Shown here piece after piece: positions 3,267-38,010 of a stretch of 38,346 bases of DNA. This DNA comes from a virus: the IMG/VR virus record IMGVR_UViG_3300008107_000401, positions 1-38,346 of that record; one strand, written 5' to 3'. The stretch's first letter is position 1, and every line of letters starts with the position of its first letter. The notes below the pieces were generated by a model. That model worked only from the letters and a program-made list of their open reading frames with translations. It did not search any database and was not told the DNA's origin. The position numbers and the translations under genes were made by a program.

Positions 3267-5072
3267 GTGAAAAAAATTAAATTTAAAAATCTTTCGATTC
3301 AAAATTTTTTGTCAGTTGGTGAAGAAAAATTAAATTTAAATTTTCAACAAGGAATTAATTTAATTACAGGTATCAATAATGACAAAGACAGTAAAAATGG
3401 ATGTGGTAAAACGACAATTCTAGATGCTTTATATTGGTCTATCTTTGGAAATACTATTAGAGATATTAAAAAAGATAAAATAGTACATAATCATTCCGAT
3501 TCAAAATGTAAAGTTGATTTGTTTTTTTCTATATCGGATAATGATAAAAATGAAATTGAATATAAGATTGAAAGGTCTTTAAATCCAAGCAAGGTGTCTT
3601 TATTCAAGAAAGAAGAAGACACAACATATTCTACTATTCAAAAAACAGACGAAGCTATTAGAGAGCTTATAGGAGCAAACGAAGAGTTGTTTAGAAACTC
3701 TATCGTAATGTCATTGGACAACACTCTTCCTTTTATGGCTCAAAAGAAAGTAGAAAAAAGAAAATTTATTGAAAGTATTCTTCAAATAAATGTTTTTAGT
3801 GAAATGCTTTCAAAAGTTAGACAAGATTACAATGATTCTAAGAAAGAATATGATATTTTTACAAACCAATTTACAGACAAGCAAAGAACTATTTCTTTTT
3901 TAAAAGAACAACAGCAAAAAGAAATAGAAAACAAACAAAACAAGATAAATTTAATTCAAGAAAAGATAAAAGAAACAGAAAATAAACTCAAAGAAAACAA
4001 AAGTACTGAATTATTAAACCAAAAAACAAAATTAGAGAGTTCTTTGACTAAAACAGATGAAGCAATTCAAAAGATCGAGAAAAAAATAACAGAAATATCT
4101 GATTCTTTATTGGAAAAAACGAAGGTAGAAACAAGAATCCAAAATGAAATTGAAACATTTGAAAAAAATATCAAATCTTTTAAAAATAAAACAGGTAATT
4201 GTCCAACATGTAAAAGGAAATTGTCTGATGAGAATGATGAATCAATCAAAACTCACATAGAAGAATTACAAATCCAAATAAAACAAAAAGAAGAAGAATT
4301 TAACAATGCAATTTCTGAAAAAAACAAAATAGTTACAGAAAGAACAAATACTTCAAAGAAAAAAACAGAATTAACACTTCTTTGCAATGATTTGAAGACA
4401 AAAATTAATAAATTACAAATTTCTATACAAGAAAACAACAATTTAAGTCAAAAAATAGAAGAACTAAACATTTCAATAACCGAAATCCAAAATGAAAAGT
4501 CTTCCTATATCGAAAAAATAGAAGAATTTGAAAAAGAAATCAAAACTCTCGAAGAAAAGTTAACAAATCAGCAAAAACAACTCAATATTTTAGAAAATTC
4601 CAAATTAATTGTTTCAGAAGAGGGTGTTAAGACACATATTATTAAAAAACTTCTTGTTTTCTTCAATAATAAATTGAATTTTTATCTTAAAAAATTAGAA
4701 GCACCTTGTACATGTACCTTTGATGAATATTTTGACGAAACAATTACAAATGAGAACAAAAAAGAATGTTCTTATTTTAATTTTAGTGGAGGAGAACGGA
4801 AAAGAATAGACCTAGCTATTCTTTTTACATTTCAAGACATACTAAAATCACAGTCCGGTATATATTATTCACTTAATATGTATGATGAATTGTTTGATTC
4901 TGCTCTGGATGAAGCAGGAGCAAATAAAGTTTTAGAAATATTGAGAGAAAAAACAGAAAAATACAATGAATCCGTGTATATTATATCACATAATTCTGCT
5001 GTATCTAAGAATAACATAGATAACACAATTCAGCTACAAAAAAATCAAGGTAAAACAACAATAGTAATTTGA
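3267..5072 (+). CDS. 46: gp46-like recombination nuclease ATPase subunit (SbcC/Rad50 family)
   Basis: This 601-residue protein matches T4 gp46 (560 residues), the ATPase partner of the gp47 nuclease in recombination-dependent replication and DNA end processing. The Walker A motif is NGCGKTT (44-50). A long Lys/Glu/Gln-rich coiled coil spans about 190-470 and is broken by a zinc hook with CPTC at 312-315. The ABC signature FSGGERKRID is at 506-515 and the Walker B region LNMYDELFD at 536-544. Translation starts at GTG 3267, six bases after the preceding stop; the resulting N-terminus (KKIKFKNLSIQNFLSVG) is typical of the family. No gp47 gene is present in the window. Confidence 0.95.
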   Translation: MKKIKFKNLSIQNFLSVGEEKLNLNFQQGINLITGINNDKDSKNGCGKTTILDALYWSIFGNTIRDIKKDKIVHNHSDSKCKVDLFFSISDNDKNEIEYKIERSLNPSKVSLFKKEEDTTYSTIQKTDEAIRELIGANEELFRNSIVMSLDNTLPFMAQKKVEKRKFIESILQINVFSEMLSKVRQDYNDSKKEYDIFTNQFTDKQRTISFLKEQQQKEIENKQNKINLIQEKIKETENKLKENKSTELLNQKTKLESSLTKTDEAIQKIEKKITEISDSLLEKTKVETRIQNEIETFEKNIKSFKNKTGNCPTCKRKLSDENDESIKTHIEELQIQIKQKEEEFNNAISEKNKIVTERTNTSKKKTELTLLCNDLKTKINKLQISIQENNNLSQKIEELNISITEIQNEKSSYIEKIEEFEKEIKTLEEKLTNQQKQLNILENSKLIVSEEGVKTHIIKKLLVFFNNKLNFYLKKLEAPCTCTFDEYFDETITNENKKECSYFNFSGGERKRIDLAILFTFQDILKSQSGIYYSLNMYDELFDSALDEAGANKVLEILREKTEKYNESVYIISHNSAVSKNNIDNTIQLQKNQGKTTIVI

Positions 5073-5096
5073 TTTTTATAAAATATTTGATATAAT
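5069..5096 (+). promoter_or_regulatory. candidate sigma70-like promoter before the GT-B gene
   Basis: TTGATT (5069-5074) and a perfect TATAAT (5091-5096) are 16 nt apart. The start codon at 5105 is only 8 nt beyond the -10 box, so the predicted leader is at most a few bases. The -35 box overlaps the end of gene 46. Confidence 0.45.
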
Positions 5097-5104
5097 ATAT
5101 AAAT

Positions 5105-14837: not shown

Positions 14838-14841
14838 TATC

Positions 14842-15678: not shown

Positions 15679-16075
15679 TCAAGAAGAAGCAATGGAAGCA
15701 GCACTTTTAGCCGGTATGGTTAAAAGTAAAATGAGAAACATAGATTCTATGATGGAATCTAGACCAGATGTTCCAGCTGATAGGATAAATTTACATGAAT
15801 TTGTAAGAGGAGCAAAGCAAAATCAATCAATACCAACTAATACAGAACAGACACATCAAAATTATCAAATTCACACTATCCCACCTGTTCAGAATAATCA
15901 AATTCAGAATAATTTTCCAACTCAAACACAAAATACTATAAGCTCATATGATGGTTTAGAGTCTGATATTAAGAATATTAATACAAATTTGGAAAAAATT
16001 AATAATAATTTAACAAAATTAACAGGAATGTTTGGAAAAGTTTTCCAAAACATGAATAAATCAAATCAAAAATGA
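15668..16075 (+). CDS. hypothetical protein with Asn/Gln-rich linker and coiled-coil end
   Basis: This 135-residue protein has an acidic helical N-terminus (SDQEEAMEAALLAGMVKSKM), a short ordered part (DVPADRINLHEFVRG), a low-complexity Asn/Gln/Thr-rich middle, and a C-terminal heptad-like helix ending in GMFGKVFQNMNK. It overlaps the end of folE2 and the start of the clamp gene (ATGA at 16072). T4 has the small late co-activator gp33 near genes 59-32, and this gene is in a comparable position, but no sequence match supports that identity. Treat it as unknown, with gp33 analogue as a weak idea. Confidence 0.65.
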   Translation: MISDQEEAMEAALLAGMVKSKMRNIDSMMESRPDVPADRINLHEFVRGAKQNQSIPTNTEQTHQNYQIHTIPPVQNNQIQNNFPTQTQNTISSYDGLESDIKNINTNLEKINNNLTKLTGMFGKVFQNMNKSNQK

Positions 16076-16818
16076 TAAATATTACTGTTGAAAAGTCTTT
16101 TCTTCAAAGATTTTTAAAGACTATTGGAAGATTATGTGATAGTTGTACTGTAAAAATAGAAGATGATCAAATTTATTCAATAAGTTCATCTTCTGATAAC
16201 ATAGTTATTCTTTATATAAAAGGAATTCTACCAGAAAAGCAAGAACAGCCATATAAATTGAATATTATAGATATTCAAAGGTTTTTGTGTGGTCTTGATT
16301 GTTTAGATTCTGCTTTTATAGAATTAATAATCAATGAAAATTATTTAAAATGTCAAACAAAGGATATTCCAGATAAAACACACTTTAAATATCACTTGGT
16401 TGATGATAGTGTGATGTCAAAAACACCATTTAGTCTTAAAAAGATATCAAATTTAAAATTTGACACAGAATTTTCTATACCATTACCGTGTCAGAATAAA
16501 ATAATGTCTGCTTATTCATTTTCACCAGATGTCTCTAAAATATATTTTAAAGAAAATAACGGTTCTATATTTGCAGAAATAAATGATCTAACACAATACA
16601 ATAAAGATAGTGTTGAATTTAAAGTATCTGACAAATATATCGGTGATTTAATTAAACAACCAACACCAATAAGCATAGAATTATTTAAAAACTTAATTTA
16701 TACTAAAAATAGCAATATAAATGTAAAAATAAATAACGAATATAAAGTTTTTGTATTTAATGTTAAAGAAGATGAATTTATTGATGTGAAATATATAACA
16801 TCAGCACTTGTTAAGTGA
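16072..16818 (+). CDS. 45: probable sliding clamp, gp45-like
   Basis: This 248-residue protein is close in size to T4 gp45 (228). It shows the two-domain clamp pattern. The first domain runs from a helix FLQRFLKTIGRL through alternating strands (KIEDDQIYSISSSSDN) to the IIDIQRFLCGLDCLDSA segment, which parallels the YDLNGFLGIL region of gp45. A central linker contains KTPFSLKKI. The second domain repeats the strand pattern and ends in acidic strands. The clamp would tether gp43 and, in T4, also activates late transcription. Identity is low and rests on pattern, size and context. It starts in an ATGA overlap. Confidence 0.7.
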   Translation: MINITVEKSFLQRFLKTIGRLCDSCTVKIEDDQIYSISSSSDNIVILYIKGILPEKQEQPYKLNIIDIQRFLCGLDCLDSAFIELIINENYLKCQTKDIPDKTHFKYHLVDDSVMSKTPFSLKKISNLKFDTEFSIPLPCQNKIMSAYSFSPDVSKIYFKENNGSIFAEINDLTQYNKDSVEFKVSDKYIGDLIKQPTPISIELFKNLIYTKNSNINVKINNEYKVFVFNVKEDEFIDVKYITSALVK

Positions 16819-23465: not shown

Positions 23466-23780
23466 TTACCACTTACCAACAGGACATTTTTCTGCTTTTA
23501 AGTATGTCTTTACAGAAAGAAAACATCCACATTTAGAACATCTTTGTGATAAAGACTCGAAAAAAGGACATCCTTTACAAATAGAAAGCCTTCTATTTGC
23601 TTCTTCTGGTGTTAATCTAAAATCATTTCCTTGAACAACACTAACAGCATTGTTAACAACACTTCTTCCTAAATTTCTTGCCATTTGACCAGCAGAAGGC
23701 ATGGAAAGATTTTTATTTGATGATTGAAGTTGTCTTTGTCTTGTTTCTTCTAGTCTTCTTTTTAAAAAATCAGAATTCAT
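23466..23780 (-). CDS. small Cys-rich zinc-ribbon-like protein of the hub operon
   Basis: This 104-residue protein has a basic, Gln/Arg-rich helical N-terminus and a C-terminal cluster of six Cys: CKGC, then RCSKCGC, then KCPVGKW at the end. This is a likely zinc-binding fold; the spacing and the final C-P-x-G-K-W resemble small phage-encoded ribbon proteins found beside tail genes. Its role could be as an assembly factor or as a small hub component. It lies between the gp27-like gene and the hydrophobic structural gene, with short gaps, and starts in a TTAATATG context. Confidence 0.7.
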   Translation of the reverse strand: MNSDFLKRRLEETRQRQLQSSNKNLSMPSAGQMARNLGRSVVNNAVSVVQGNDFRLTPEEANRRLSICKGCPFFESLSQRCSKCGCFLSVKTYLKAEKCPVGKW

Positions 23781-23791
23781 ATTAATAATAC

Positions 23792-25381
23792 TTAATACTT
23801 TTTATCTAAAACATCCCAATGTGGTTGAATTCCATCAAATTTATTTGAATAAACATCAGTAACATACATATTCTGGTCAAAATAATGTATTACCTTTGTT
23901 ATAAACCATTGTCCTAAAAATTTATCATTAAATAAATTTTTATCACTTGCATCTAATTTATCCACAAATATAAAGTTACCAGGAGTTCTTAATGTTAATC
24001 CTTCATTTTGAAAATATAAACTTTGATTTAAGAACAACATGTCTTTTGTCATTCTGACAGAATTTAACAAAGGTGAACCCTGTGTTAATAGTGTATTTTC
24101 TACAGAAATTCCTTCTCTTTTGGTTTTATTTATATTCATCCAAACTTGAGCTTTTCCGCCAGTAGAGGAGAATGAATAAAGTTCACCAGAGGAGCATATT
24201 TCTTTAAGATTTTCATAAAAACTTTCTAATTTATTATCTTTAGCATGAATATTATATGTTCCTGTAGAAAAATCAAACATATGTATTGGTCTGTTTGTGA
24301 ATCTAAAATCATCAACTGGGGCCATTTGAGAAAATTTATAGTTATTTATTAATGAGGCTCTAGGAGAGGTAAAATTTATTATTTTTTTATCATCTTTTTG
24401 TATCGGTGCTCTACCAACATATGCAGTTGATGTAGGAGCAACACCATCATTTAAAAGCAATTGTTCTAATTGTTTAGCTTGTTTAAAGTAATCTTTTAAT
24501 GATAATAATTCCCAGTTTTTATCATATCTACCGAATTTTAAAAAAATAGGATCTTTTTTGTCACCAACAGCATGATTTAGCATAAAATCTAGATCATCTA
24601 TTACTGTTGAATTGGATGGAGAAGTATAAAAAACATTATAATCAGGAGAAGAATTTCCTTTATTCCACAAATCATTGTTTATACTGTTTAAAGGAATGTC
24701 CGGTTTATCTATAGATCCAAATTCATAATCATAACCTACCTTTATTTCACCTTCATTTATGGAATTTGTGAAAGTGTTGCAAGACGCTGTATTTATTATT
24801 GATTTTATTGCATCACATGGATTCATTTTCCTTTGACTATCGGGTAAAGACCAAACAGGACTCCCAGACTTCGCAGCATCCCCATGAGTAGATGTTGACC
24901 ACGGAATATTTCTTTCAGAAAAAATTTGATATCTTTCATCAATAAAATAAAATTTCTTTGATTTTTTAATGGAATTTATTGATTCCATGTCTTCTACATC
25001 ATAAACAACAAAATCATAATCCATCGTCCAAAGTTTTTCATCATTAATACCATCAGATATCGTTGATATTCTTATGTTTATTTTATTTCTACCATCATGT
25101 CTAAATTTATAAATATAACTTTGTGATTTAGAAGAATTTTTTTCTTGATCCGAAAACAGATCAAGATTAGCTCCTTTCTCCAAAACCTCAAAATCATTTT
25201 GAAGAATAATCCATCCTTTAGTCCACCAATTAATCATAGTTTCTTCTATAACTAACCCCATTACAACTTTATATGGTATAAAAACAGGTTTATCCATGTT
25301 ATTATACATTGTTATTCTTATTTGGTATAATTGATTTCTTAAAGTAACCAATTCACCATTAATTTTATCATATTTTGTCAT
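23792..25381 (-). CDS. baseplate hub protein, gp27-like
   Basis: This 529-residue protein has the layout of the gp27/gpD/VgrG N-terminal hub fold. It opens with long strands (LVTLRNQLYQIRITMYNN, then VFIPYKVVMGLVIEE). The C-terminal end GNFIFVDKLD ... LGQWFITKVIHYFDQNMYVTD ... is the barrel-closing pattern typical of hub proteins. T4 gp27 has 391 residues, so this form carries extra material in the middle. The gene overlaps the tube-like gene upstream by 14 nt and lies upstream of the spike, as expected for a protein that holds the spike on the tube. Confidence 0.72.
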   Translation of the reverse strand: MTKYDKINGELVTLRNQLYQIRITMYNNMDKPVFIPYKVVMGLVIEETMINWWTKGWIILQNDFEVLEKGANLDLFSDQEKNSSKSQSYIYKFRHDGRNKINIRISTISDGINDEKLWTMDYDFVVYDVEDMESINSIKKSKKFYFIDERYQIFSERNIPWSTSTHGDAAKSGSPVWSLPDSQRKMNPCDAIKSIINTASCNTFTNSINEGEIKVGYDYEFGSIDKPDIPLNSINNDLWNKGNSSPDYNVFYTSPSNSTVIDDLDFMLNHAVGDKKDPIFLKFGRYDKNWELLSLKDYFKQAKQLEQLLLNDGVAPTSTAYVGRAPIQKDDKKIINFTSPRASLINNYKFSQMAPVDDFRFTNRPIHMFDFSTGTYNIHAKDNKLESFYENLKEICSSGELYSFSSTGGKAQVWMNINKTKREGISVENTLLTQGSPLLNSVRMTKDMLFLNQSLYFQNEGLTLRTPGNFIFVDKLDASDKNLFNDKFLGQWFITKVIHYFDQNMYVTDVYSNKFDGIQPHWDVLDKKY

Positions 25382-25988
25382 GACAATCTACCTTACAATC
25401 ATTTACATTATGAACCATTTCAATATGAAGTTGGTTATAAGCAAAGGAAACAGACCCAATTATCTCTGCTCCATCTTGATGTGAATAGCTTATTCCTCCT
25501 AAATTTGTTATAAACGCATCTTCATAAGATATATTCATTAATTTATTATTATATTCGTCCATTATAATTAAATTTAAATTAGTTACATAATCTGAGAACA
25601 TATTTTTCATATCGGATTCACCAATATGTGGAATTTCTTGTGTTGTAACAATGTCGCTTACTGAGTATTTTGAATCATTAAATTGATTTAACCATGACCA
25701 CAATATATAATAATTGTGATATCCATTATCTATAAAAAATTTTACTTCCAATGGACTATAATCTGGTCTTGAAAATGAACTAGTTTTATATGTTTGACCA
25801 CTAAACCCTAGTGAAATTGGTGGAATTATTACATCAGGAACAGATAAACCGAATATACTTAATTCCACTTTATTATCATTAAAATCACTCATTAAAACAG
25901 GATCAATCTTTTGTTTTATACCAACAGGTAATCCAAACAAAAGTGCGAATTTATCATTTCTTGATTTATTTAAAATAGATTGGTTCAT
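25368..25988 (-). CDS. tail-tube-fold protein, gp54/gp19-like
   Basis: This 206-residue protein has the tube-fold pattern: NDKFALLFGLP near the start, a conserved middle EVKFFIDNGYHNYYILWSWL, then LNLIIMDEYNNKLMNISYED AFITNLGG and a final beta strand SVSFAYNQLHIEMV. In T4 the equivalent position next to the hub is held by gp54, the tube initiator, which has a gp19 fold. It is the third tube-like protein of the window and overlaps the gp27-like gene by 14 nt. The exact role (initiator or hub ring) is inferred. Confidence 0.62.
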   Translation of the reverse strand: MNQSILNKSRNDKFALLFGLPVGIKQKIDPVLMSDFNDNKVELSIFGLSVPDVIIPPISLGFSGQTYKTSSFSRPDYSPLEVKFFIDNGYHNYYILWSWLNQFNDSKYSVSDIVTTQEIPHIGESDMKNMFSDYVTNLNLIIMDEYNNKLMNISYEDAFITNLGGISYSHQDGAEIIGSVSFAYNQLHIEMVHNVNDCKVDCHDKI

Positions 25989-28196: not shown

Positions 28197-29240
28197 TTAA
28201 AACTTACCAGTATCTACTATTGGTGTTGTTACTCTATTTACAACTGATCTTAAAGCGGATTCATCTCTACTTATTACTTCAACTTTATTACCACCCATAA
28301 CTTGTTCAAAAATGTTTGTAGATTGTGATATTAGTTCTCTAAGTGTTATTGTAACAGAATATGCTTCGGGTATTAGCAAATTTTGTCCTAAAACTATTTC
28401 ATCTGTTTTTCTAACAGTTCCTATACTTTCTATTTTAAGATCTTCAACAACCGCAATAGGCATATAAAACCCACCAACAGTATCTTTACATGTTACAGTA
28501 TAAACAGAAGGAGGAACATATGTAACCATAGATGTTCTGTTTTTTAAATTTTGAAATGTTATTAGATTTACAAAATCAAAATTTCTTCTGGTAGAAGAAA
28601 CATCAACCGTGTTATATAAAGGAAATTTTATTGTTATAGAGTATTGTTCTGTTTTTGAAAATGTATAAATTGGTTCCATTCCCCAACCTGGAGATACTGA
28701 ACCAGCAACCAAACCAGCAGCAAGACCAATAAGTTTTTCAGAAGAACTAGGATTGCCACTATTGGATGAACTAGTTGCGCTATTTCCATTCATATCATTC
28801 CAAGTATTTCTAATAGCTCTTATAGTTCCACCAGAACCCAATAACCAAGGTAAATGATATAAAAAATTTTTTCCATTGGATGAATCTTCAACTTGATACA
28901 TTACACCATATGGATCAGATAATGCTTCTTTAAAATTACCAGTATTTATAATTCTACTAGCGGTGTCATATATGTTTTCAAGAGTTTTAGCAACTCCAGA
29001 CATAGACAAGGTTCTTTCTTCTAAAGTAATAGTAGGAACTTCTGAGGTATCCAAACCTCTGTTTTTCCAATCAAAATCATTTACAATATCTATTGCTTTT
29101 TTAGGGAAAAGTCTTGTTCTTTTTAATATACTAGATACTGAAACCTTATCAGTCTCCGAAGTACTTACAGTATCATCATCAACAGAAAAAAGTTCACTAT
29201 CTTTTAAATATGATATAGTTTTTAATTCTATTTTTTTCAT
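28197..29240 (-). CDS. 48: baseplate tail-tube cap, gp48-like
   Basis: This 347-residue protein is close to T4 gp48 (364), which caps the baseplate and starts the tube. The N-terminal half is helical and polar, with a Ser/Asn-rich loop near 155-170. The C-terminal half has the tube-fold pattern: YSITIKFPLYNT, then VTYVPPSVYTVTC and QNLLIPEAYSVTITLREL. The PPSVY and PE-x-Y-x-V-x-I-x-L-x-x-L features are characteristic. Its ATG overlaps the stop of the tape measure gene, implying coupled translation. Assignment rests on pattern and order. Confidence 0.68.
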   Translation of the reverse strand: MKKIELKTISYLKDSELFSVDDDTVSTSETDKVSVSSILKRTRLFPKKAIDIVNDFDWKNRGLDTSEVPTITLEERTLSMSGVAKTLENIYDTASRIINTGNFKEALSDPYGVMYQVEDSSNGKNFLYHLPWLLGSGGTIRAIRNTWNDMNGNSATSSSNSGNPSSSEKLIGLAAGLVAGSVSPGWGMEPIYTFSKTEQYSITIKFPLYNTVDVSSTRRNFDFVNLITFQNLKNRTSMVTYVPPSVYTVTCKDTVGGFYMPIAVVEDLKIESIGTVRKTDEIVLGQNLLIPEAYSVTITLRELISQSTNIFEQVMGGNKVEVISRDESALRSVVNRVTTPIVDTGKF

Positions 29241-32182
29241 GTATATGAAGTTCTATTATATGAATTGTTTCTAATGTAATCATACCTTGCCAACATGTTT
29301 TGATCTCTGGTAGAAGACATATCCAATTTGTTTGTTGATTGAGACGTATTGTTATTATTTATAATTGTAGGTGATTGGTTGTTGTTACTCATGTTTTGTT
29401 GTTTTAGTGCCAATGCAGATATTTCATTTGTAACACCTAACATTTTTTCTGTTAATTTTTCTATATTTTTATTAAGTTTATTAAATGTATCATTTATTGG
29501 TCCCTTTTCATTAAAAGATGTTATTTTATCGTCTTTTGGAAGAAAAACAAATTTACCAGAATCAAAATTAGGAGAGGGACTTGGTTGATAAGAAAAGTCT
29601 TTTTGTTTTATTGGTAAATTAAACATATTATTTTCATCAAAATCATTCGCATGAACAGAGTTTGTTAATTGTTCTATCTCCTTTTTTAAAGATGTTATTT
29701 TTTCTAATCTTTTTGGATCTCTTGATCTTTGATTTTGTATTTCTGAAAGTTCTGCTACCTTCTCTTGTAATTTTGATTTTAAAATATCTTTCTCTGATGT
29801 ATCATCACCAGTTGATAAAATATCTTTCTCTGATGTATCATCACCAGTTGAATTTTGAATTGGTTTTCCTTCTCTTAATTCTTTTTGTCTATCGATTTGA
29901 AGTTGTAAATCATGTCTTTCTTTATCAAGATCTTCTAAACTTTTATTTAGTTCTTCTATTTTTTTATTTTTTGAACTTGCTTCTGACCTATCTCTAACTG
30001 GTAGTTGTTCAACAGAAGCCTTATCAGCTTCTATTTTTTTTCTCCTAGACATAATATCTTTATCTTGTTCTATTAATTTGTCTTCTTCTTCCTTATTATA
30101 TTTTGTTGGAAGATTTTCTATTATTTTTTGTGTGTTAGGAGTCTTAAATGATTTAGATGCGTCTAATGTTGGAACATTTTTTGTATCTAAATTTAATGCT
30201 TTTCCTATTGATTCAAACATTCCACCAATTAAAGGAATATTTGATAATGTTTTAAATGCTCTAGGCATATCACCCATAAAAACAGCTTCTATACCATCAT
30301 ATAAATCAAAAAAAGCTTTCATAACAGGTGTTTCTTTAACCCATTCCCAAACTTTAGAGAACCAATCACCAACAGCTTCAAATCTTGTTTTTCCTGATTC
30401 TGTTTTTGTAGACATTAAAGTGTTTAACAAATCCACACCTATAGAAAGCCCAGTTCCAACACCGGGAAACAAATTAGCAATACCAGAAACAAGATCTAAA
30501 GAACCTGACATTATATTACCATTATTAAAATTATCCCATGCATCGGCAAAACTTAATAAACTTCCAAGTAAAGGTAATCTTTTAAAGAATGGTTTACCAA
30601 GTTTTGTAGTAAATTTTAAGGCTTTGAGTGCCATTTTAGCAAAATCAAATCCGGTCTGTTGAACTCCACTTTCTTTTGCTTCTTGTGTTCCAATAATAGA
30701 ACTTAAAATATCTAAACCTATGGATATAGGTAATCCAACACCAGGTACAAAAGCAGCAATACCAGAAGCAAGATCCAATGTACCACCTAAAATATTATTT
30801 TGTTGATATTTTTCCCATGCATTAGAAAAATTAAATAAAGATCCTATAAATGGAATTCGTTTTAAAACCGGTCCACCCATTAATTTAGCATAAACACCAA
30901 CAGCTTTTGTTAACATTCCCGCCACATTTAATGTTTTCTGTATTAATTCTTTTTTTTCTTCAGGACTTTTAAAGTCTATAATAGCATTCATAACACTAAG
31001 ACCTATGGAAAGCCCCGTTCCTATACCTGGAACAAAAGCAGCCAATCCTGCACCAATATCAATAATACCCTGAGCATATTCACCCTCCTTGAAACGACCC
31101 CATGCATCTGAAAAACTAATAATAGAACCAATTAAGGGAATTGCTTTCAATGCTGTTTTTGATAATCCCTTAAATAAAAGAGATCCTCCGGTTTTTAATG
31201 CATTCCCTAAACCCTTTCCTATAGTGCTTCCTACTGCGTTATCAGCGGCACTAGCACCTATACCCAAAAGATTATCAAATATACCACCAAATATTTTTAT
31301 AGCACCACTAGCAAAATCATCAGCAACTTTACCAAGCAAAGACCCCAACGTTTGAAAGGTTTTCCCTACGGTTACTTGAAGACCACCGACTGATAAAAAT
31401 TTTCCTAATGCATTTATAGTACCTTGAAATTGGTCAAATACTTCTGCTGCTTTATCACCGAATTTTTCACCTATATATTTCTTAATTTCAGGCCAAAACA
31501 TACCAGCAAGTGCAGATGCGCCACCAATAGCAGCGAACATAAGAGGCAAAGACTTGGCCAAATCTAGTATATTATCTAAAAAACTGCCTTGTTTTGTTTG
31601 TCCAATGTTTAATTTTTTTAAATTCTCTGCATTATCATTTGATAATTTGTTTATCCATTTTTCTATCAAACTTATAGTTGGTAAACTGAAAGAAATAATA
31701 GTTTCTGGTGTTTTTTTCTCTATTAATTTCTCTTCTGTGGGAGAATCAGATTCACTTAAAACATTTTGATAGCTTAACTGGTCATTATTGTTTTGAGTAA
31801 TTGGATTTTGTCGAATATTTTCAGATTTATTTTGATTAGAATAAACATTTTTAATTTCTTCTATAGTATTATTAAACTTTTTGTTGTTGTTGTTAACAAT
31901 ATTTTTTGTTTCTTCTTCAAAAGCAGAGAAAAATTTATCAATTTTATTAAAAACATCTGAGGTTTTTAATGCATTTTTATCAATATCTTTGCTTAATTTT
32001 TCCCAAGATTTTAATAATGGTATCAAATATTTTCTTTTAAATTCCTTTTGAATAGATAAAACTTCTGGATCATTTTTTGTTAAAAAATCAAAAAATGAGT
32101 TAAGAATGGTTGATGGATTTTTTAAATTATCACCAAAAACCTTTTGAATTTCAGAAACTACTCCTGCTACATCTGTTGCCAT
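29237..32182 (-). CDS. tail tape measure protein
   Basis: This 981-residue protein has a helical N-terminus with many Lys/Asn, then a hydrophobic central region with Gly/Ala-rich segments and three copies of an about 94-residue module (near 345-405, 440-500 and 533-592), each with A/R-I/L-P-L-I-G-S, a D-A-W or N-A-W, and a GIG/GVG-T/L-G-L-S-I-G stretch. The C-terminal third is coiled-coil-like (KIEELNKSLEDLDKERHDLQ) with a duplicated TGDDTSEKDIL. This length, repetition and position between the tail chaperones and the tube cap fit a tape measure. At about 1.5 angstrom per residue it would set a tail near 150 nm. Confidence 0.85.
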   Translation of the reverse strand: MATDVAGVVSEIQKVFGDNLKNPSTILNSFFDFLTKNDPEVLSIQKEFKRKYLIPLLKSWEKLSKDIDKNALKTSDVFNKIDKFFSAFEEETKNIVNNNNKKFNNTIEEIKNVYSNQNKSENIRQNPITQNNNDQLSYQNVLSESDSPTEEKLIEKKTPETIISFSLPTISLIEKWINKLSNDNAENLKKLNIGQTKQGSFLDNILDLAKSLPLMFAAIGGASALAGMFWPEIKKYIGEKFGDKAAEVFDQFQGTINALGKFLSVGGLQVTVGKTFQTLGSLLGKVADDFASGAIKIFGGIFDNLLGIGASAADNAVGSTIGKGLGNALKTGGSLLFKGLSKTALKAIPLIGSIISFSDAWGRFKEGEYAQGIIDIGAGLAAFVPGIGTGLSIGLSVMNAIIDFKSPEEKKELIQKTLNVAGMLTKAVGVYAKLMGGPVLKRIPFIGSLFNFSNAWEKYQQNNILGGTLDLASGIAAFVPGVGLPISIGLDILSSIIGTQEAKESGVQQTGFDFAKMALKALKFTTKLGKPFFKRLPLLGSLLSFADAWDNFNNGNIMSGSLDLVSGIANLFPGVGTGLSIGVDLLNTLMSTKTESGKTRFEAVGDWFSKVWEWVKETPVMKAFFDLYDGIEAVFMGDMPRAFKTLSNIPLIGGMFESIGKALNLDTKNVPTLDASKSFKTPNTQKIIENLPTKYNKEEEDKLIEQDKDIMSRRKKIEADKASVEQLPVRDRSEASSKNKKIEELNKSLEDLDKERHDLQLQIDRQKELREGKPIQNSTGDDTSEKDILSTGDDTSEKDILKSKLQEKVAELSEIQNQRSRDPKRLEKITSLKKEIEQLTNSVHANDFDENNMFNLPIKQKDFSYQPSPSPNFDSGKFVFLPKDDKITSFNEKGPINDTFNKLNKNIEKLTEKMLGVTNEISALALKQQNMSNNNQSPTIINNNNTSQSTNKLDMSSTRDQNMLARYDYIRNNSYNRTSYT
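29781..29852 (-). repeat. 36-bp tandem duplication in the tape measure gene
   Basis: Two units, 29781-29816 and 29817-29852, are identical except for the last base. They encode the 12-residue segment STGDDTSEKDIL twice in frame. The near-identity at DNA level points to a recent slippage or duplication, unlike the older hydrophobic repeats of the same gene. Confidence 0.95.
30407..31150 (-). repeat. three diverged copies of a hydrophobic tape-measure module
   Basis: Residues 345-592 contain three modules of about 94 residues that align over IPLIGSIISFSDAW, IPFIGSLFNFSNAW and LPLLGSLLSFADAW, then a polar spacer and FVPGIGTGLSIGL, FVPGVGLPISIGL and FPGVGTGLSIGV. Divergence is too high for recent duplication, so the repeats have been kept under selection. 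Confidence 0.88.
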
Positions 32183-32187
32183 AATAC

Positions 32188-32195
32188 TATTTATG
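32188..32195 (-). promoter_or_regulatory. T4-late-type promoter box before the tape measure gene
   Basis: CATAAATA on the minus strand lies 5 nt before the tape measure ATG. It matches NATAAATA, the T4-like late box. The predicted transcript would start at or near the ATG. Confidence 0.4.
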
Positions 32196-32217
32196 GCTAA
32201 ATATTAAAATTAAACAA

Positions 32218-33033
32218 TTACATTAAGAACAATAAGTTGTCTAATGTTATTGTTTTCTTGTAATTTCCTTCTTTAGATGGAACTTCTAAGATATTATCTA
32301 ATGTTTTTTTCCAATCAGATATCTTTTCTAATATGTTTTGTGTTAAATCTGCTGTTAAAACCTCGCAAATTTTAATTCTTTGATTAATTGTAAAGTTTTT
32401 AAAATCAATTTCTTGTGAATTAAAAGTAATTTTACTAATAAATTTTGATACTTCACCAATAAAGACATCAGACAAAACAGTTCCCATTTCGTTGATATTC
32501 TTGATATTTTCCATTTTTTTGGTTGTTTTAGTGATTTCTGATTCGTATTTTGCTTCCAAAGACATACTAGGAACAGTTAATTCAACATTTAGAATAGAAT
32601 CATTTTTAACTATATTAAAACTTTCAGATACAGGATGATTATATGTTTTAATTTTTTCTATAATAGGTGAAATATCTATATTTTCCGTATATACAGGATT
32701 TTCATTAAAAATAACATTTAAACTTTTTGATATTTTTGACCTTAAAAAAAGACCAATAGCAATTTTATCATATATAGTAAAATTATCTGCATTAATATTT
32801 TCTGTTATTAAATTTTCTTTTATAATATCTAAAAAAACTCTTGAAAATTCAGTTTTATAAACAGAAGTATCTGTTACTGTTTCTAGTAATTTTTTTTGTT
32901 GTCTTGTATTAAGTTCTTTAAATTGTACATTTTGATTCAAAGAAGGTATTTTTACATCTATTACAAATGTATTAGTTAAAGATGTTAATTCATTTAGTAA
33001 TTCGTTGAATGAAATATTTGTATTATCGCTCAT
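32218..33033 (-). CDS. tail assembly chaperone, gp26-like
   Basis: This 271-residue protein shows the T4 gp26/gp51-type pattern: VKIPSLNQNVQFKELNTRQQKKLL (part) near the start, where L-N/T-x-x-Q-x-x-L-L is the marker, then FLDIIKENL, a DK-x-x-I-G-L-FLRSKISKSL segment, and a later set of acidic strands. A second similar motif, IDFKNFTINQRIKICEVL, occurs in the C-terminal half. Position directly before the tape measure gene supports a chaperone that keeps the tape measure soluble. T4 gp26 is listed as a hub component, so a virion role is also possible. No Shine-Dalgarno sequence is seen. Confidence 0.65.
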   Translation of the reverse strand: MSDNTNISFNELLNELTSLTNTFVIDVKIPSLNQNVQFKELNTRQQKKLLETVTDTSVYKTEFSRVFLDIIKENLITENINADNFTIYDKIAIGLFLRSKISKSLNVIFNENPVYTENIDISPIIEKIKTYNHPVSESFNIVKNDSILNVELTVPSMSLEAKYESEITKTTKKMENIKNINEMGTVLSDVFIGEVSKFISKITFNSQEIDFKNFTINQRIKICEVLTADLTQNILEKISDWKKTLDNILEVPSKEGNYKKTITLDNLLFLM

Positions 33034-33050
33034 TTTATTATTTAATTAAT

Positions 33051-33071
33051 AAAAAAACTTGAAAATCAAGT
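33051..33071 (-). terminator. weak hairpin-plus-T terminator between the two chaperone genes
   Basis: On the minus strand a 6-bp stem (ACTTGA with TCAAGT), TTT loop, is followed by six T. The stem overlaps the TGA stop of the upstream gene. With only two G-C pairs, termination would be partial, giving lower expression of the downstream chaperone and tape measure. A late box at the tape measure gene would restore it. Confidence 0.4.
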
Positions 33072-33944
33072 AGATTGTTCTTTTGCTGATTGTATAAGAT
33101 AATTTATGTAATTATTTTTTTGTCGAGGTGTCATATTATATATTTCATTCATATCAAAATTAAACTTTTTAAGAAAACAAACCTCTGCTATTTCCGAGTC
33201 TTCACTTCCAGCAAATAAAAATCTTATAATATCTTGTATTGTTGCATTATAAAATTCTAACTTGTATTGATTAAAATCTTCTAAACCAAACAAAGTCATT
33301 TCTGACAATTCTTTTAAAAGAGATAATATATTTGTTTGTAAAATATTTTGAATAGAAATAGGTAAAGAATCTATCAATTCTTTTTTTTGTTCAAAATTAA
33401 GATTTTTAAAATCAAAAGTTTTATTTTTTATAACAATATTATCAACAAATAAAGGAATAGAATTAATAAATTTGTTGAATTGATCATCTTCTATTGAATT
33501 TAGAAAAAAAATCTCATGATTTAATAATGGCCAACATAATGACAATTCAATATCATCTAATTTTATATTTTTATAATTTTGTATTATATTTGTTGATTCA
33601 AAAACATTTGCCATTAAATCATAAAAATTTATATTTATTTTTACATTTTGATCATTTTTTTTTCCAGCTTCCAGTTCAACATTTGCTGATATAGACAATG
33701 ATCTTAATCTTATACAAAACATTAAAAATTCTAAAATATTAAGATTGTATATATTATCCTTTTCCTTTATACAATCTTTTAGTATATTAACGAGTTGAAT
33801 ATGATACTCTGATCTATTTTCAGAAGAAGCTGGAAAAATATTATTTATTTTTATTAATGAATGACATTGCTCACATGTTAATTCTTTAAAATTTAATACT
33901 GTATTTGTAAATGGAAATTGAAGTGTATGAATATAATAAGACAT
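33066..33944 (-). CDS. second tail assembly chaperone-like protein (gp26/gp51 family)
   Basis: This 292-residue protein shares the layout of the next gene: LQFPFTNTVLNFKELTCEQC near the start, NILEFLMFCIRLRSLSI (part) in the middle, then IDDQF-like acidic segments, and a second motif DFKNLNFEQKKELIDSLP (190s). The two genes therefore look like paralogues with low identity, as in T4 gp26 and gp51. A conserved CEQC near residue 24 is an odd detail. It starts 6 nt after the preceding gene, and a weak terminator lies at its end. Function as a tail or hub assembly helper is inferred. Confidence 0.62.
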   Translation of the reverse strand: MSYYIHTLQFPFTNTVLNFKELTCEQCHSLIKINNIFPASSENRSEYHIQLVNILKDCIKEKDNIYNLNILEFLMFCIRLRSLSISANVELEAGKKNDQNVKININFYDLMANVFESTNIIQNYKNIKLDDIELSLCWPLLNHEIFFLNSIEDDQFNKFINSIPLFVDNIVIKNKTFDFKNLNFEQKKELIDSLPISIQNILQTNILSLLKELSEMTLFGLEDFNQYKLEFYNATIQDIIRFLFAGSEDSEIAEVCFLKKFNFDMNEIYNMTPRQKNNYINYLIQSAKEQST

Positions 33945-33950
33945 AATTTA

Positions 33951-34676
33951 TCAGGAATTGTAATATGTTCTTTCTAAATTTGCATAAGAGTGCGTATCTC
34001 TTACATAGTATTGATCATATACAAAGTCAACTGATGTGGTCTTCATATCATCTGATAAATATGAATATTGTTCTCCGTTTATACTAATAGGAACGATATT
34101 TTGAAATCTATAAGATTTCCTAGAATCTTGTGGGTTTTTTGATCCTGTTCTTGCTAAAAAATGCACATCACAAAATGTACATTTAATATTTTTCTCGCTA
34201 TCTTGTCTTCTAGACATCATTCCATAATATGATGCTAAAACCAACCAAGGTTTAATAACAAAATCTACAAACGAAGCATTTGTTTCTAAAAACGTAACAC
34301 TTAGCTTATTATATTTTGTTCTAGTATTTGATGTTGCTGGAGGAAGCCATCCACCATAACTTAACCCATCATTACCGGCCTCAAATGATTCAGTAGGCAA
34401 ATTTACCTGTTTTGCGAAAACACAACCCACATTTTTTTTAAAATGATACTCATAATCTGTAAGTTTGGAAATTGTTTCGTCATTCACATACCAACCTTCC
34501 CCTAAACCAAAATTGCCTTCAAACTTATAAAGAGTTTCACTTAATTTGTTTTTAAGAGCATTTACACTGGCTATATCAAACCACAAAAACCATTGATTAG
34601 AAGAACCTAAAGCTGTAGGCCATTCAGATAATGTTCTTAGGTAGTTTTCATAGGGACTAGATAATTCATCCGCCAT
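33951..34676 (-). CDS. second tail-tube-like protein
   Basis: This 241-residue protein has a tube-fold layout. Segments include WFLWFDIASVNALKNKLSET, VGCVFAKQVNLPTESF, KLSVTFLETNASFVDFVIKPW and a final DFVYDQYYVRD strand. A CTFC motif occurs in the middle. The LPTESF (as ATLPSKTI in gp19), FLETNASFVDFVIKPW and the last strand parallel the tube protein encoded upstream. T4 has one major tube protein and gp54/gp48 relatives, so this may be a tube initiator, a minor tube ring or a tail terminator. It follows gp19 after 28 nt, and a late-type box precedes it. Confidence 0.6.
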   Translation of the reverse strand: MADELSSPYENYLRTLSEWPTALGSSNQWFLWFDIASVNALKNKLSETLYKFEGNFGLGEGWYVNDETISKLTDYEYHFKKNVGCVFAKQVNLPTESFEAGNDGLSYGGWLPPATSNTRTKYNKLSVTFLETNASFVDFVIKPWLVLASYYGMMSRRQDSEKNIKCTFCDVHFLARTGSKNPQDSRKSYRFQNIVPISINGEQYSYLSDDMKTTSVDFVYDQYYVRDTHSYANLERTYYNS

Positions 34677-34682
34677 ATGATA

Positions 34683-34690
34683 TATTTATC
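34683..34690 (-). promoter_or_regulatory. T4-late-type promoter box before the second tube-like gene
   Basis: GATAAATA on the minus strand lies 6 nt before the start codon in the 28-nt gap after the tube gene. It matches NATAAATA. Confidence 0.4.
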
Positions 34691-34704
34691 AAACAATACA
34701 GATA

Positions 34705-35244
34705 TTAGTTTCCTCTTACTCTCCAATATTGGTAAGCAATAGTGGCTGGAGCGGTTACTATATCGCCAGCAGTACCTATGTTTAAGGTAAATTCTCCTAA
34801 ATTTGTTAAATAACAACCGAATAAATCATATGTTCTTAGTGTGTTTCCTTTTTTATCCAAAAGAAGAAGGGTGGTAATTCCATCATCTCCATCAGGAATA
34901 CTATAATCTCCGGTGCTATCTCTATCATCAAAAATATTAGTCATCCAGCCTTCTAGTTTTTCCCTTATTTCCAAACCAGCATCCATTCTTATATTAATAG
35001 ACCAGGCATTACTATTTGGATACTGTACAGTACCAGGAACATTAAACTGTAATCCCATATAAGGAACTGCTATATTATTAATTGTTTTACTAGGGAGGGT
35101 TGCTGATTCTATATAAATTAATTCATCTTGATCTAGGACATTTCCACCAAAATTTATAATTCTAAAAAGATTTTGTCTAAAAAAATCTTTTCTACCAGCG
35201 ACTTCGTGAAAGTTTCTAATACCTTGTTGTGTTAATATTGACAT
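34705..35244 (-). CDS. 19: tail tube protein, gp19-like
   Basis: This 179-residue protein is close to T4 gp19 (163), the major tail tube subunit. It shows FRQNLFRIINFGG near the start, YIESATLPSKTINNIAVPYMG (part), WSINIRMDAGLEIREKLEGW with the helix that packs between rings, then LLLLDKKGNTLRTYDLFGCYLTNLGE (part), which is the typical tube strand pair, and a final IAYQYWRVR strand. It lies directly after the sheath gene, the T4 order 18-19. It is expected to be among the most abundant late proteins. Confidence 0.92.
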   Translation of the reverse strand: MSILTQQGIRNFHEVAGRKDFFRQNLFRIINFGGNVLDQDELIYIESATLPSKTINNIAVPYMGLQFNVPGTVQYPNSNAWSINIRMDAGLEIREKLEGWMTNIFDDRDSTGDYSIPDGDDGITTLLLLDKKGNTLRTYDLFGCYLTNLGEFTLNIGTAGDIVTAPATIAYQYWRVRGN

Positions 35245-35245
35245 A

Positions 35246-35259
35246 TATTTATATTTACC
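35246..35259 (-). promoter_or_regulatory. overlapping late-type boxes before the tube gene
   Basis: On the minus strand GGTAAATA (35252-35259) and TATAAATA (35246-35253) overlap, 7 and 1 nt before the ATG. The closer one matches the T4 late consensus exactly but would start transcription inside the gene. The farther one has spacing like the other late candidates here. Confidence 0.35.
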
Positions 35260-35272
35260 TTTCTATATTAAA

Positions 35273-37990
35273 TTATCCTATAAGATCATCAAGATCTACG
35301 CCAGTTCTTGTAGCAATGAAGTCAGCTAATATGAATTCTGCTGTTCTCACAGGCTGTATATAAACAGCTAATCTTAATTCATTCCTATCAATTACATCTG
35401 GTGTATTATTTCTTTCATCACATATTAGTCTATAATCATAGATACCTTGACGTGTTTTTGCTCTTTCGAAAAGAGGTGTTAATCTTAAAATAACTCTGTT
35501 TCTTGTTGGTATTGTATTTGGTTCAAATACAAATCTATCCAATATTCTAGTTGATTCTTTTTCCAAATGTAAGAACAGATTTCTAACATTTAATCTATCA
35601 AATGCTGTTTGATAATTGATAAATGTTTTTTGACCATAAACAACCATACCTTCTCTTGGGAAGTTTACAACAGGGTTGTATGCAGACCTGTAAAGAATAT
35701 CTCTTTGTCTTTGATTTGGGTTTACGGCCAAATCAGCAACGCCAGAAAGTCTTCCATAATTAAATCCTGCTGGTGCAGTCCAAGGTGCTCTCTTCTTTGC
35801 ATTAAGCATAATTCTTCCAACAAAACCAGAAGGAGGAACCCATGCAAATTCATCAGAAGAAGCATCATACCTTCTCATCCAGTTTGCATATACAGACATA
35901 TATGTTGATCTTCCAATTCTTGCATAAGAATTTTGTAATGGTCTAAAAATATCATCAACAAAATTAAATGCTTTTCTATCTGAAGTTTTTGAGTTAATTC
36001 CTTTTACAAAGATATATCTTAAAGGATCTGATATAAAGACGTGATTTTTTCTTTGTTGAGCAACAGTTCTAAATCTTCTAACAATATCTACATAAGAATC
36101 TCTGACAATATCCGGTGTTTGTAGATATTCTCTATAATTTTTTGGAATAATTTTTAAGTTAGAAATATCAACAGGAATTGTATCATCAAATGTTTCTTGA
36201 TCTATATTTCCTGTAATATTTTCTTGATATTTAACACCAGCATGAATTGTTCCTAATCCTGCTTCACAAACAATATCAAGATTTTTTGTCTCATTTTCGG
36301 TTAATTCATACATTTGGAATGTTCTATCTAATTTTAACATTAAATTTCCAATTCGTTTATTTTGACTAGTTACAGTACTTGGTGTATATATACCAGTAGC
36401 CCAAAGCGATTTTGCTGCATCAGAGATTATTACTCTCTTTGTTGGCATAGCAAAAGAATCAGTCCATGTTCCAGATTCAGAAATATTTGGATTTACTACC
36501 ATTCTAATTCTTGAATTTGAATTATTTTCAACTTTATTTTCGATAAAGAAATTAACAAGTCTACCACCATTAGGATTATTCTGTTTTCTTTGTGAATATA
36601 AAGAACCAACATAAGCTTCTACTGTTGATGGAGTATTTAATGTAATAGCATCTTGTAAATTTGTTGATGTATTAATTCTGAATACAAACAGTTTCAAGCA
36701 ATCATTAAATGAATCTTGTGAGAAATCATATGAGGGCCATCTTGCCATTCTTTCAGAAACACTCTGAAAATTAATACTGGAATAAGGTTCTGATAAAGTG
36801 AAATTTAATCTTTCTTCTGGAACTGTGAAGAATGTTTGAATAGCTTTGTTTGAATCTGAAAGAGGCATTCCATCAATAGCAGAAATAGAATTAACAGCCT
36901 GTAATGAAGTAACTGCATTAAAATCTGTATAAGGAGTATCATCAGAATTATCTGTTAATCCAATATAAAATCCTTCGAATAAATCATTGTTTCTTACTTT
37001 ATCACTATTAACAATTATTATTCCTGCTTTATTAATATCATCTATGCTATTAATTGTGAATTTATCAACGTTATCAGCGTAATCTGTTAAATAATTTAAA
37101 GTATAATTAATAGGAATATTAAAATTATTTCTGGTTGAACTTTTTGCGGAAAGCTGTTCAGCATAGCTTGTAAGTGATAAATTAGTAGTCACAGAAGCCC
37201 AAGCAGTAGGAACACCAAATGCTTCTTTTTTCAATTGATTTGTTTCGTTGTTTGATTCATATGCCAAACTATCAATTTTGTCGTTTATTCTTTGTTCAAA
37301 TAATCTCTGAAGATTAAATGACGTCAATGGTCTGGATAAATTTAATTGTGTTGGTAAAACAACAGGTCCAGTATAAACAGTCTCCGATGGACCAAAATAA
37401 CTGTTTACAAATGAAACATCAGTAACACTCAAATCATTAACTATATCTAAAAATATAGCACTTGCTTGATCCCATGTTAAACTAAATGTTTTGTTTGCTA
37501 CTGATGAAACTTGAAAACCATTTGTCCATGCAATGTTTCTATCTTTAATTTGGTTTTCATATGCATCTTCACTTAAAAGAACAGATTTTGGTGGAAGCAC
37601 ATAATATGTCTCGGCTTCACCATATGTTTTTCCGTGAGGAATAATAGGGAAAAATAATGCACTATAATAGTTTTGAATCCCTTCTCCAGCATTTTTACCA
37701 TAAGGAAGTCTTGTAACAAGAACATCTGATCCAGTAGAAGCTAACTGTTCAACAGTGTGTGACAAATATCTTTCAGCAGCTGTTTCTGGTAAACCAAAAA
37801 CAGTATTAAATTGAGCCATACTTGTTATTCTAACAATTTCATCAGTTGGACCTTGAGGAGCGAAGCCAGCAACCATAGCGGCTGGTCTTCTTGGTGCTAG
37901 TCCGGCTGGTCTTCTTGTTAGGTCAATTTCAGTGATTTGAACGCCTGGTGATTGTATTCTTCTAGGTGATTGTATGATTTTTGTAGCCAT
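35273..37990 (-). CDS. 18: tail sheath protein, gp18-like
   Basis: This 905-residue contractile sheath subunit is longer than T4 gp18 (659). The N-terminus has the conserved SPGVQITEIDLT (14-25) and FAPQGPTDE pattern, and the C-terminus (about 869-905) has RNELRLAVYIQPVRTAEFI, which forms the inter-subunit strand. FINYQTAFDRLNVRNLFLHL and ARIGRSTYMSVYANWM also fit sheath domains near the C-terminal half. The extra about 250 residues probably form outward-facing insertions. The first residues contain two short duplications (QSPRRIQSP and RRPAGLAPRRPA). It starts the late minus-strand module. Confidence 0.95.
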   Translation of the reverse strand: MATKIIQSPRRIQSPGVQITEIDLTRRPAGLAPRRPAAMVAGFAPQGPTDEIVRITSMAQFNTVFGLPETAAERYLSHTVEQLASTGSDVLVTRLPYGKNAGEGIQNYYSALFFPIIPHGKTYGEAETYYVLPPKSVLLSEDAYENQIKDRNIAWTNGFQVSSVANKTFSLTWDQASAIFLDIVNDLSVTDVSFVNSYFGPSETVYTGPVVLPTQLNLSRPLTSFNLQRLFEQRINDKIDSLAYESNNETNQLKKEAFGVPTAWASVTTNLSLTSYAEQLSAKSSTRNNFNIPINYTLNYLTDYADNVDKFTINSIDDINKAGIIIVNSDKVRNNDLFEGFYIGLTDNSDDTPYTDFNAVTSLQAVNSISAIDGMPLSDSNKAIQTFFTVPEERLNFTLSEPYSSINFQSVSERMARWPSYDFSQDSFNDCLKLFVFRINTSTNLQDAITLNTPSTVEAYVGSLYSQRKQNNPNGGRLVNFFIENKVENNSNSRIRMVVNPNISESGTWTDSFAMPTKRVIISDAAKSLWATGIYTPSTVTSQNKRIGNLMLKLDRTFQMYELTENETKNLDIVCEAGLGTIHAGVKYQENITGNIDQETFDDTIPVDISNLKIIPKNYREYLQTPDIVRDSYVDIVRRFRTVAQQRKNHVFISDPLRYIFVKGINSKTSDRKAFNFVDDIFRPLQNSYARIGRSTYMSVYANWMRRYDASSDEFAWVPPSGFVGRIMLNAKKRAPWTAPAGFNYGRLSGVADLAVNPNQRQRDILYRSAYNPVVNFPREGMVVYGQKTFINYQTAFDRLNVRNLFLHLEKESTRILDRFVFEPNTIPTRNRVILRLTPLFERAKTRQGIYDYRLICDERNNTPDVIDRNELRLAVYIQPVRTAEFILADFIATRTGVDLDDLIG
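37879..37917 (-). repeat. 15-bp direct repeats in the first codons of the sheath gene
   Basis: CGGCTGGTCTTCTTG occurs at 37879-37893 and 37903-37917, encoding the two RRPA segments. A second pair, GGTGATTGTAT, lies at 37947-37957 and 37965-37975, encoding the two IQSP segments. Confidence 0.9.
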
Positions 37991-38002
37991 ATTTTATAGA
38001 AA

Positions 38003-38010
38003 TATTTATC
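38003..38010 (-). promoter_or_regulatory. T4-late-type promoter box before the sheath gene
   Basis: GATAAATA on the minus strand lies 12 nt before the sheath ATG, in the 75-nt divergent gap. It matches NATAAATA and has the most ordinary spacing of the late candidates. Confidence 0.5.

Follow-up and report, generated by a model that had tools for sequence, protein, structure and literature searches.

In a 38-kb fragment of a virus genome (IMG/VR-type virus record IMGVR_UViG_3300008107_000401, 38,346 nt, hereafter the window), boxes resembling the late promoters of phage T4 lie only a few nucleotides (nt) ahead of the start codons of tail genes, and the same placement recurs in the relatives of this virus. 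We consider it very likely that these boxes are gp55-type late promoters giving leaderless or near-leaderless late mRNAs. A phage late sigma factor would bring the host RNA polymerase to the sequence (N)TAARTA, with transcription starting some 6 nt downstream of the box. Given the spacing between box and gene, +1 would then coincide with the A of the ATG or precede it by a few nucleotides. The late mRNAs would have no leader, or one that in most cases is shorter than about 12 nt and leaves no room for a Shine-Dalgarno (SD) site, and ribosomes would probably initiate at the 5'-terminal or near-terminal AUG. What we infer from the patterns described below is where transcription actually starts, that gp55 uses these boxes, and how ribosomes enter.

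Position of the box in the window and in its relatives

The gap is counted here as the number of nucleotides between the end of the box and the ATG, and leaders are predicted from the geometry of T4. The T4 late box is given as spanning −13 to −6 (PMC1524935), so that with a gap of 5 nt the first transcribed base would be the A of the ATG. The heptamer ATAAATA had been fixed beforehand by a sequence-only reading of the window, which placed it 12, 1, 6 and 5 nt before the sheath, tube, second tube-like and tape measure genes, and all four boxes are present (Table 1). That reading also expected such boxes to be rare near start codons by base composition. ATAAATA is carried at gap 0–15 by 4 of the 14 minus-strand genes, while dinucleotide shuffles of these upstream regions give a mean of 0.48 and reach four in 3 of 2000 trials. 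For the 21 plus-strand genes the count is what chance would give (1 observed, shuffle mean 0.70), and over the whole window the heptamer is not in excess (33 found, 37 expected by shuffling), so that the unusual feature is its position. ATAAATA ranks first among 21 permutations of its own letters, preceding 6 of the 35 open reading frames (ORFs) of the window at gap −1 to 15, with 4 for the runner-up. When variant boxes are added, 6 of the 14 minus-strand genes have a box at gap 5–12, a count found in none of 2000 shuffles; this brings in two late genes that had been overlooked, the 271-amino acid (aa) gene (32218–33033) and the gene at 23466–23780.

The spacings are conserved gene by gene. 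The sheath box stands at gap 12 also in L011, L020 and L021, the box of the second tube-like gene at gap 5–6 in L011, L013, L017 and L019, and that of the tape measure gene at gap 5 in L011, L015, L019, L020 and L025, and ORFs of 269–271 aa with N-termini resembling that of the 271-aa gene have a near box in L019, L028, L035 and L038. Of the four boxes first named, the one 1 nt before the tube ATG is probably incidental; under T4 geometry it would start the RNA inside the gene. The working box of the tube gene is probably the GTAAATA at 7 nt. In L011 and L012 (tubes 94% identical) the 1-nt box is lost and GGTAAATA at 7 nt is kept, the 7-nt box is conserved in L009–L013, and most other tube relatives have ATAAATA or TAAGTA. 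Overall, TAARTA at gap 5–17 precedes 80 of 81 tube genes at identities down to 43% (window included, not dereplicated).

The relatives were collected via the tube gene, giving 80 loci, of which 54 were kept after dereplication (loci sharing more than 20% of 21-mers were dropped). In these 54 loci (646 ORFs), ATAAATA lies at gap −1 to 15 of 105 ORFs and at gap 16–40 of 13, compared with 6 ORFs for a 31-position stretch inside genes. A second set consisted of 8 whole records (130–227 kb, 1834 ORFs) taken from 17 relatives; G014, whose listed sites are shared with G015, was among those left out. ORF starts came from a simple longest-ORF caller admitting ATG only. In the 8 records, the heptamer is found at gaps 4, 5, 6, 7, 8 and 9 in 0, 37, 40, 21, 12 and 13 cases, followed by a decaying tail, and the edge at gap 5 coincides exactly with the position predicted from T4. 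It is also far above the permutations of its letters in the relatives. The shorter pattern TAARTA was chosen after inspecting late upstream regions, where the variants GTAAATA, CTAAATA and ATAAGTA occur. Over 1831 upstream regions it stays at shuffle level at gaps 0–4 (33 observed, 30.2 expected) and is elevenfold above the shuffles at gaps 5–9 (328 observed, 29.4 expected). Frequencies upstream of and inside genes, which the sequence-only reading had proposed to compare, are far from equal, with 35.7 TAARTA per kb at gap 5–9 and 0.79 per kb inside genes.

These counts bear on two simpler explanations. The guanine-plus-cytosine (GC) content of the window is only 28.7% and ATAAATA shows no overall excess there, so that AT-rich sequence ahead of start codons might yield such boxes by chance; set against this are the window shuffles, the excess at gaps 5–9 and the boxes of the tube genes, and chance is already refuted by the comparative counts. 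An artefact of the ORF caller, in which the TAA of the box biases the choice of the first in-frame ATG towards gaps 3, 6 and 9, was rejected because gaps 5 and 7 belong to the peak, whereas 0 and 3 do not.

Late-gene specificity, start context and transcription machinery

Late and early classes were assigned by phmmer homology to T4 and Rhodothermus phage RM378, for the ORFs of the 8 records together with those of the window. At gap 5–17, ATAAATA is found on 25 of 87 late-class ORFs and on none of 86 early-class ORFs (p 5e-9), and TAARTA on 57 of 87 and 1 of 86, respectively. Genes with a box also differ in their start context. AGGAG precedes none of 178 boxed ORFs compared with 34 of 1639 unboxed ones, and AAGGA precedes 8 of the 178, standing directly before the box in the tube examples. 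A pyrimidine precedes the ATG in 80 of 91 gap-5 cases (baseline 60%), as expected of a transcription start site. ATG alone is enriched after TAARTA, 2.6–3.1-fold at gaps 5–6, with values of 0.7–1.25 for GTG, TTG and CTG.

A homologue of gp55 was detected by phmmer in all 8 large relatives (E-values 5e-12 to 3e-5), and the three homologues searched against PHROGs all match PHROG 234, late sigma factor (2.4e-25, 3e-25 and 1.1e-17). The window itself, a 38-kb fragment, has no gp55 match. It does have a gene on the plus strand whose predicted product adopts a PCNA fold (Table 1), the best Foldseek match being A. fulgidus PCNA (E-value 7.2e-13), and this gene was found in 16 of 17 relatives. We regard it as a candidate gp45 sliding clamp on the strength of the structural model, with a putative role in transcription. 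It has no Pfam or PHROG match and lies downstream of the gp32-like and FolE2 genes.

A different view of the same data is that the AT-rich box is not a promoter but a translation-start signal read in the RNA, Kozak-like, as in the SD-lacking Bacteroidetes. The boxed genes indeed have no SD, some viruses resembling the far-T4 group have been linked to Bacteroidetes (PMC7198788), and initiation in Bacteroidetes is described as depending on an A at −3 (PMC6847099). However, a translation motif would be expected on early genes too, and none of the 86 early-class ORFs of these genomes has ATAAATA at gap 5–17. Moreover, its spacing shows a one-sided edge with a tail and no symmetric optimum, the heptamer is far ahead of its letter permutations, and a second, sigma70-like class of sites has an edge of its own 1 nt further out. 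The sequence-only reading had kept this explanation as its alternative; given the contrast between early and late genes and the two promoter-specific edges, we regard it as highly unlikely.

The sigma70-like class and the weight of the evidence

The second class, TTGAC-N16-19-TAnnnT, was chosen after viewing the upstream regions of uvsX. It precedes 83 of 1869 ORFs, with 1, 25, 17 and 7 sites at gaps 5, 6, 7 and 8. The −10 element recognized by sigma70 occupies −12 to −7, and this geometry predicts an edge 1 nt further out than that of the late box, which is where the edge at gap 6 stands. The gene classes are reversed, as the pattern is present on 9 of 86 early and none of 87 late ORFs. A stricter −10 gives 21 ORFs, whereas scrambled −35 controls give 0–5 and altered spacings 1 and 6; with the loose −10 (TAnnnT), spacings of 12–15 and 20–23 give 35 sites each compared with 84 for 16–19, and these altered-spacing sites show no edge at gap 6. 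In the relatives G002–G017, sigma70-like −10 boxes were seen 6–8 nt before the ATG of early and unclassified genes. This layout suggests leaderless mRNAs for the sigma70-like class as well. That both kinds of promoter show an edge, each at a different spacing, is what one would expect of transcript starts and not of a translation motif. The earlier proposal of late transcripts starting at the ATG or immediately upstream of it draws support, as far as sequence can give it, from the edge, the late specificity, the gp55 homologues and the shift of exactly 1 nt in the sigma70-like class.

It could also be that the boxes are gp55-type promoters, but that in this lineage transcripts begin elsewhere, or that longer read-through mRNAs serve for the translation of most late genes, leaving the leaderless species minor. 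Some late genes follow one another on the same strand with only short spacers between them, 30 of the 87 late ORFs have no near box, and the gp23 genes of some records have SD-like leaders. On the other hand, the edges match the start geometry of T4 in the late class and that of sigma70 in the other, and boxed genes lack an SD. We think this reading quite unlikely.

Several points weigh against leaderless late transcription. The 30 late-class ORFs just mentioned have no TAARTA at gap 5–17, and ATAAATA is found on none of 7 gp23 capsid genes, some of which have an SD-like sequence instead, so that leadered late mRNAs probably exist too. Both TAARTA and the sigma70-like pattern were picked post hoc from these same upstream regions, which makes their p-values optimistic, and the start codons depend on the simple ATG-only caller described above. 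TAATTA is also slightly raised at gaps 5–6, yet it is not late-specific (2 of 87 vs 0 of 86). At gaps 6 and 7 the preference for a pyrimidine does not reach significance, and in the sigma70-like class it is unclear (at gap 6, 18 of 25 against a baseline of 64%). The C-terminal clamp-binding epitope of T4 gp55 could not be recognized by eye in an alignment of the 8 homologues, and phmmer searches with T4 gp33 and gp45 gave no match; attachment sites may vary in this family according to a review (PMC2988020). Finally, RM378, a cultured far-T4 isolate, is without the pattern, having 4 scattered sites in 143 ORFs. As for gp23, the genes of G004, G008 and G010 have no late box and carry an AGGAG- or GGAG-like SD, unlike most genes of those genomes.

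Comparison with other phages, hosts and gene content

In the textbook case of T4, late mRNAs have SD leaders; here, in widespread aquatic viruses, the position of the same type of promoter is such that virion mRNAs would be without leaders. T4 was read in three stretches amounting to 145 of 169 kb (50–74 kb left out) and KVP40 over 200 of 245 kb. What is shared with the late promoters of T4 (TATAAATA, served by gp55, gp33 and gp45) includes the box, its late specificity, a gp55-type sigma factor, a gene for a PCNA-like clamp, and the replication and tail genes of the T4 superfamily. The T4 boxes, however, lie 12–35 nt before the ATG, mostly with an SD in between and with two sites further out, whereas here they lie mostly at 5–9 nt with no SD, and the T4 consensus is relaxed to TAARTA, or (N)TAARTA in the relatives. 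The first box base varies in Aeh1 as well, where CTAAATA is listed (PMC1524935), a variant that also occurs here. The late promoters of cyanophages (NATAAATA; S-PM2, Syn9) share the box sequence (PMC2984593), but ATAAATA in Syn33 and S-PM2 is mostly 18–38 nt from the ATG and never at 5–9 nt; taking Syn33, S-PM2 and KVP40 together, boxes are mostly at 17–42 nt.

The layout does recur in the cultured marine Pelagibacter phage HTVC008M: of its 12 ATAAATA boxes within 25 nt, 7 are at exactly gap 5, among them those of the tape measure, DNA end protector, tail tube cap and baseplate genes. This phage belongs to another lineage (Kyanoviridae) and has SD leaders on some boxed genes: where the box is at 18–19 nt, which holds for three genes, the ATG is in each case preceded by a GGAG- or AGGA-like sequence. 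Its sigma70-like sites, unlike those of the relatives studied here, lack leaderless spacing, so that in HTVC008M only the late class has it. In a pelagimyophage-type set (36 of 80 loci after dereplication at the cut-off given above, 363 ORFs), the gaps 4, 5 and 6 hold 0, 45 and 4 boxes, although, with the loci fetched by means of one gene, this count is dominated by a small number of orthologous genes, and an SD is present on none of 50 ORFs with a gap of 5–7 compared with 61 of 292 unboxed ORFs. Judging from these sequences, the gap-5 layout of pelagimyophages is an independent recurrence.

Leaderless genes in bacteria likewise have a −10 element placed for a start at the start codon and no SD (PMC3160421, PMC9031893), with a TA-like −10 box about 10–12 bp before the start codon (PMC3160421). 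Those cases resemble the sigma70 −10 box, whereas here a late-sigma-type element of the phage stands on virion genes. According to the authors of the work on phage AR9, transcripts of phages are often leaderless (PMC5312081), and lists of T4-type late boxes exist for T4, KVP40, S-PM2 and Aeh1 (PMC1524935, PMC2988020, PMC2984593). Searches of the open-access literature brought up no description of leaderless late mRNAs from a T4-superfamily phage, most subscription papers and preprints lying outside their scope. Thus leaderless bacterial genes and T4-type boxes were both known already, and the layout described here appears to be new among T4-type late promoters.

The simple rule of a box, 5–9 nt and an ATG can assist the finding of late genes in uncultured genomes; in a pelagimyophage study, late-promoter prediction is given as unsuccessful (PMC7029224). 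For far-T4 phages, another study states that the core transcription-regulation genes of T4 were not detected (PMC4360716), and a gp55 and a clamp candidate are now supplied for phages of this kind. Since HTVC008M is cultured, it is testable how virion proteins could be made in quantity from leaderless mRNAs. One may go further and speculate that leaderless late mRNA is a deliberate strategy, arisen or persisting in at least two T4-superfamily lineages, in which the late and, here, also the sigma70-type promoters are positioned for virion mRNAs to begin at AUG, bypassing SD selection, and late translation could proceed on ribosomes or under initiation conditions disfavouring leadered host mRNAs, perhaps aided by a phage-encoded bS21 where present; we put this forward as a rather doubtful, though conceivable, extension. 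Genes for bS21 were seen in 3 of 17 relatives (L220, L221 and L222, i.e. G017, G004 and G003) and in HTVC008M (L219), that is, in two lineages that both have leaderless late boxes. No bS21 was found in the window, Syn33, S-PM2 or KVP40. As a general partner of leaderless late mRNAs it was rejected, since with 3 of 17 relatives and none in the window it is not a necessary part.

The window virus probably belongs to the far-T4 kind, judging from its genes. The plus strand carries gp46-like, DNA polymerase, UvsX, gp41-like helicase and gp32-like genes of the T4 superfamily, and the minus strand the sheath, three tube-like genes, a baseplate hub-like gene and the terminase; identity to isolates at the protein level is below 60%. 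The three tail-tube-like genes (34705–35244, 33951–34676 and 25368–25988) each match PHROG 45. The name tape measure for 29237–32182 was taken over from the sequence-only reading and is tentative, being based on the position of the gene after the tube genes. The coordinates are collected in Table 1.

Table 1 Genes, late boxes and other promoter-like sites of the window
Feature	Position	Strand	Remarks
Tail sheath gene	35273..37990	−	905 aa, gp18-like; PHROG 23, E 1.3e-57
Late box ATAAATA	38003..38009	−	12 nt before sheath ATG (37990); predicted leader 7 nt
Tail tube gene	34705..35244	−	179 aa, gp19-like; PHROG 45, E 3.6e-28
ATAAATA named first for the tube gene	35246..35252	−	1 nt before tube ATG (35244); probably incidental
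Probable working tube box TAAATA, preceded by G (GTAAATA)	35252..35257	−	gap 7; predicted leader 2 nt
Second tube-like gene	33951..34676	−	241 aa; PHROG 45, E 6.7e-5
Late box ATAAATA	34683..34689	−	6 nt before second tube-like ATG (34676); predicted leader 1 nt
271-aa gene, flanked by hub-like and tape measure genes	32218..33033	−	without PHROG match
Variant late box TAAATA	33039..33044	−	5 nt before ATG of 32218–33033; predicted leader 0
Tape measure / tail protein gene	29237..32182	−	981 aa; weak PHROG matches only
Late box ATAAATA	32188..32194	−	5 nt before tape measure ATG (32182); predicted leader 0
Variant late box TAAGTA	23789..23794	−	8 nt before ATG of 23466–23780; predicted leader 3 nt
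Candidate gp45 sliding clamp gene, PCNA fold	16072..16818	+	AlphaFold2 mean predicted local distance difference test (pLDDT) 87.4
Sigma70-like promoter TTGA...TATAAT	5069..5096	+	8 nt before ATG of glycosyltransferase gene 5105–6406
TATAAATA overlapping glycosyltransferase ATG	5098–5105	+	probably incidental

Several clues to the host were followed. The Bacteroidetes-type promoter TTG-N-TAnnTTTG precedes just 6 of 1869 ORFs, against 1 for the reversed motif and 83 for TTGAC-N-TAnnnT, so that a Bacteroidetes host is unsupported by promoters; the literature links some bS21 phages, as well as the far-T4 phages cited above, to Bacteroidetes. The bS21 of G017 served as another clue: of 116 confirmed loci, the 80 listed are all named as Verrucomicrobiota, nearly all as Opitutia, at 43–54% identity. 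These matches were not taken as a host call because the search is seeded by exact 8-mers (NEPIDRAL is shared) and most loci have 55–70% GC. The gp23 of one relative has, among the matches listed, 33–35% identity to cyanophage-type capsid proteins, and nearest isolates at this level are uninformative for the host.

A FolE2-type GTP cyclohydrolase is encoded at 14791–15678 on the plus strand (PF02649, E-value 3e-41), in a different frame from the gp32-like gene, whose end its ORF overlaps, and a search of genome contigs for a host via FolE2 gave no match. Transfer-messenger RNA genes (RF00023) are present in L090, L149 and L160, two of them with predicted tag peptides of 33 residues, which is unusually long.

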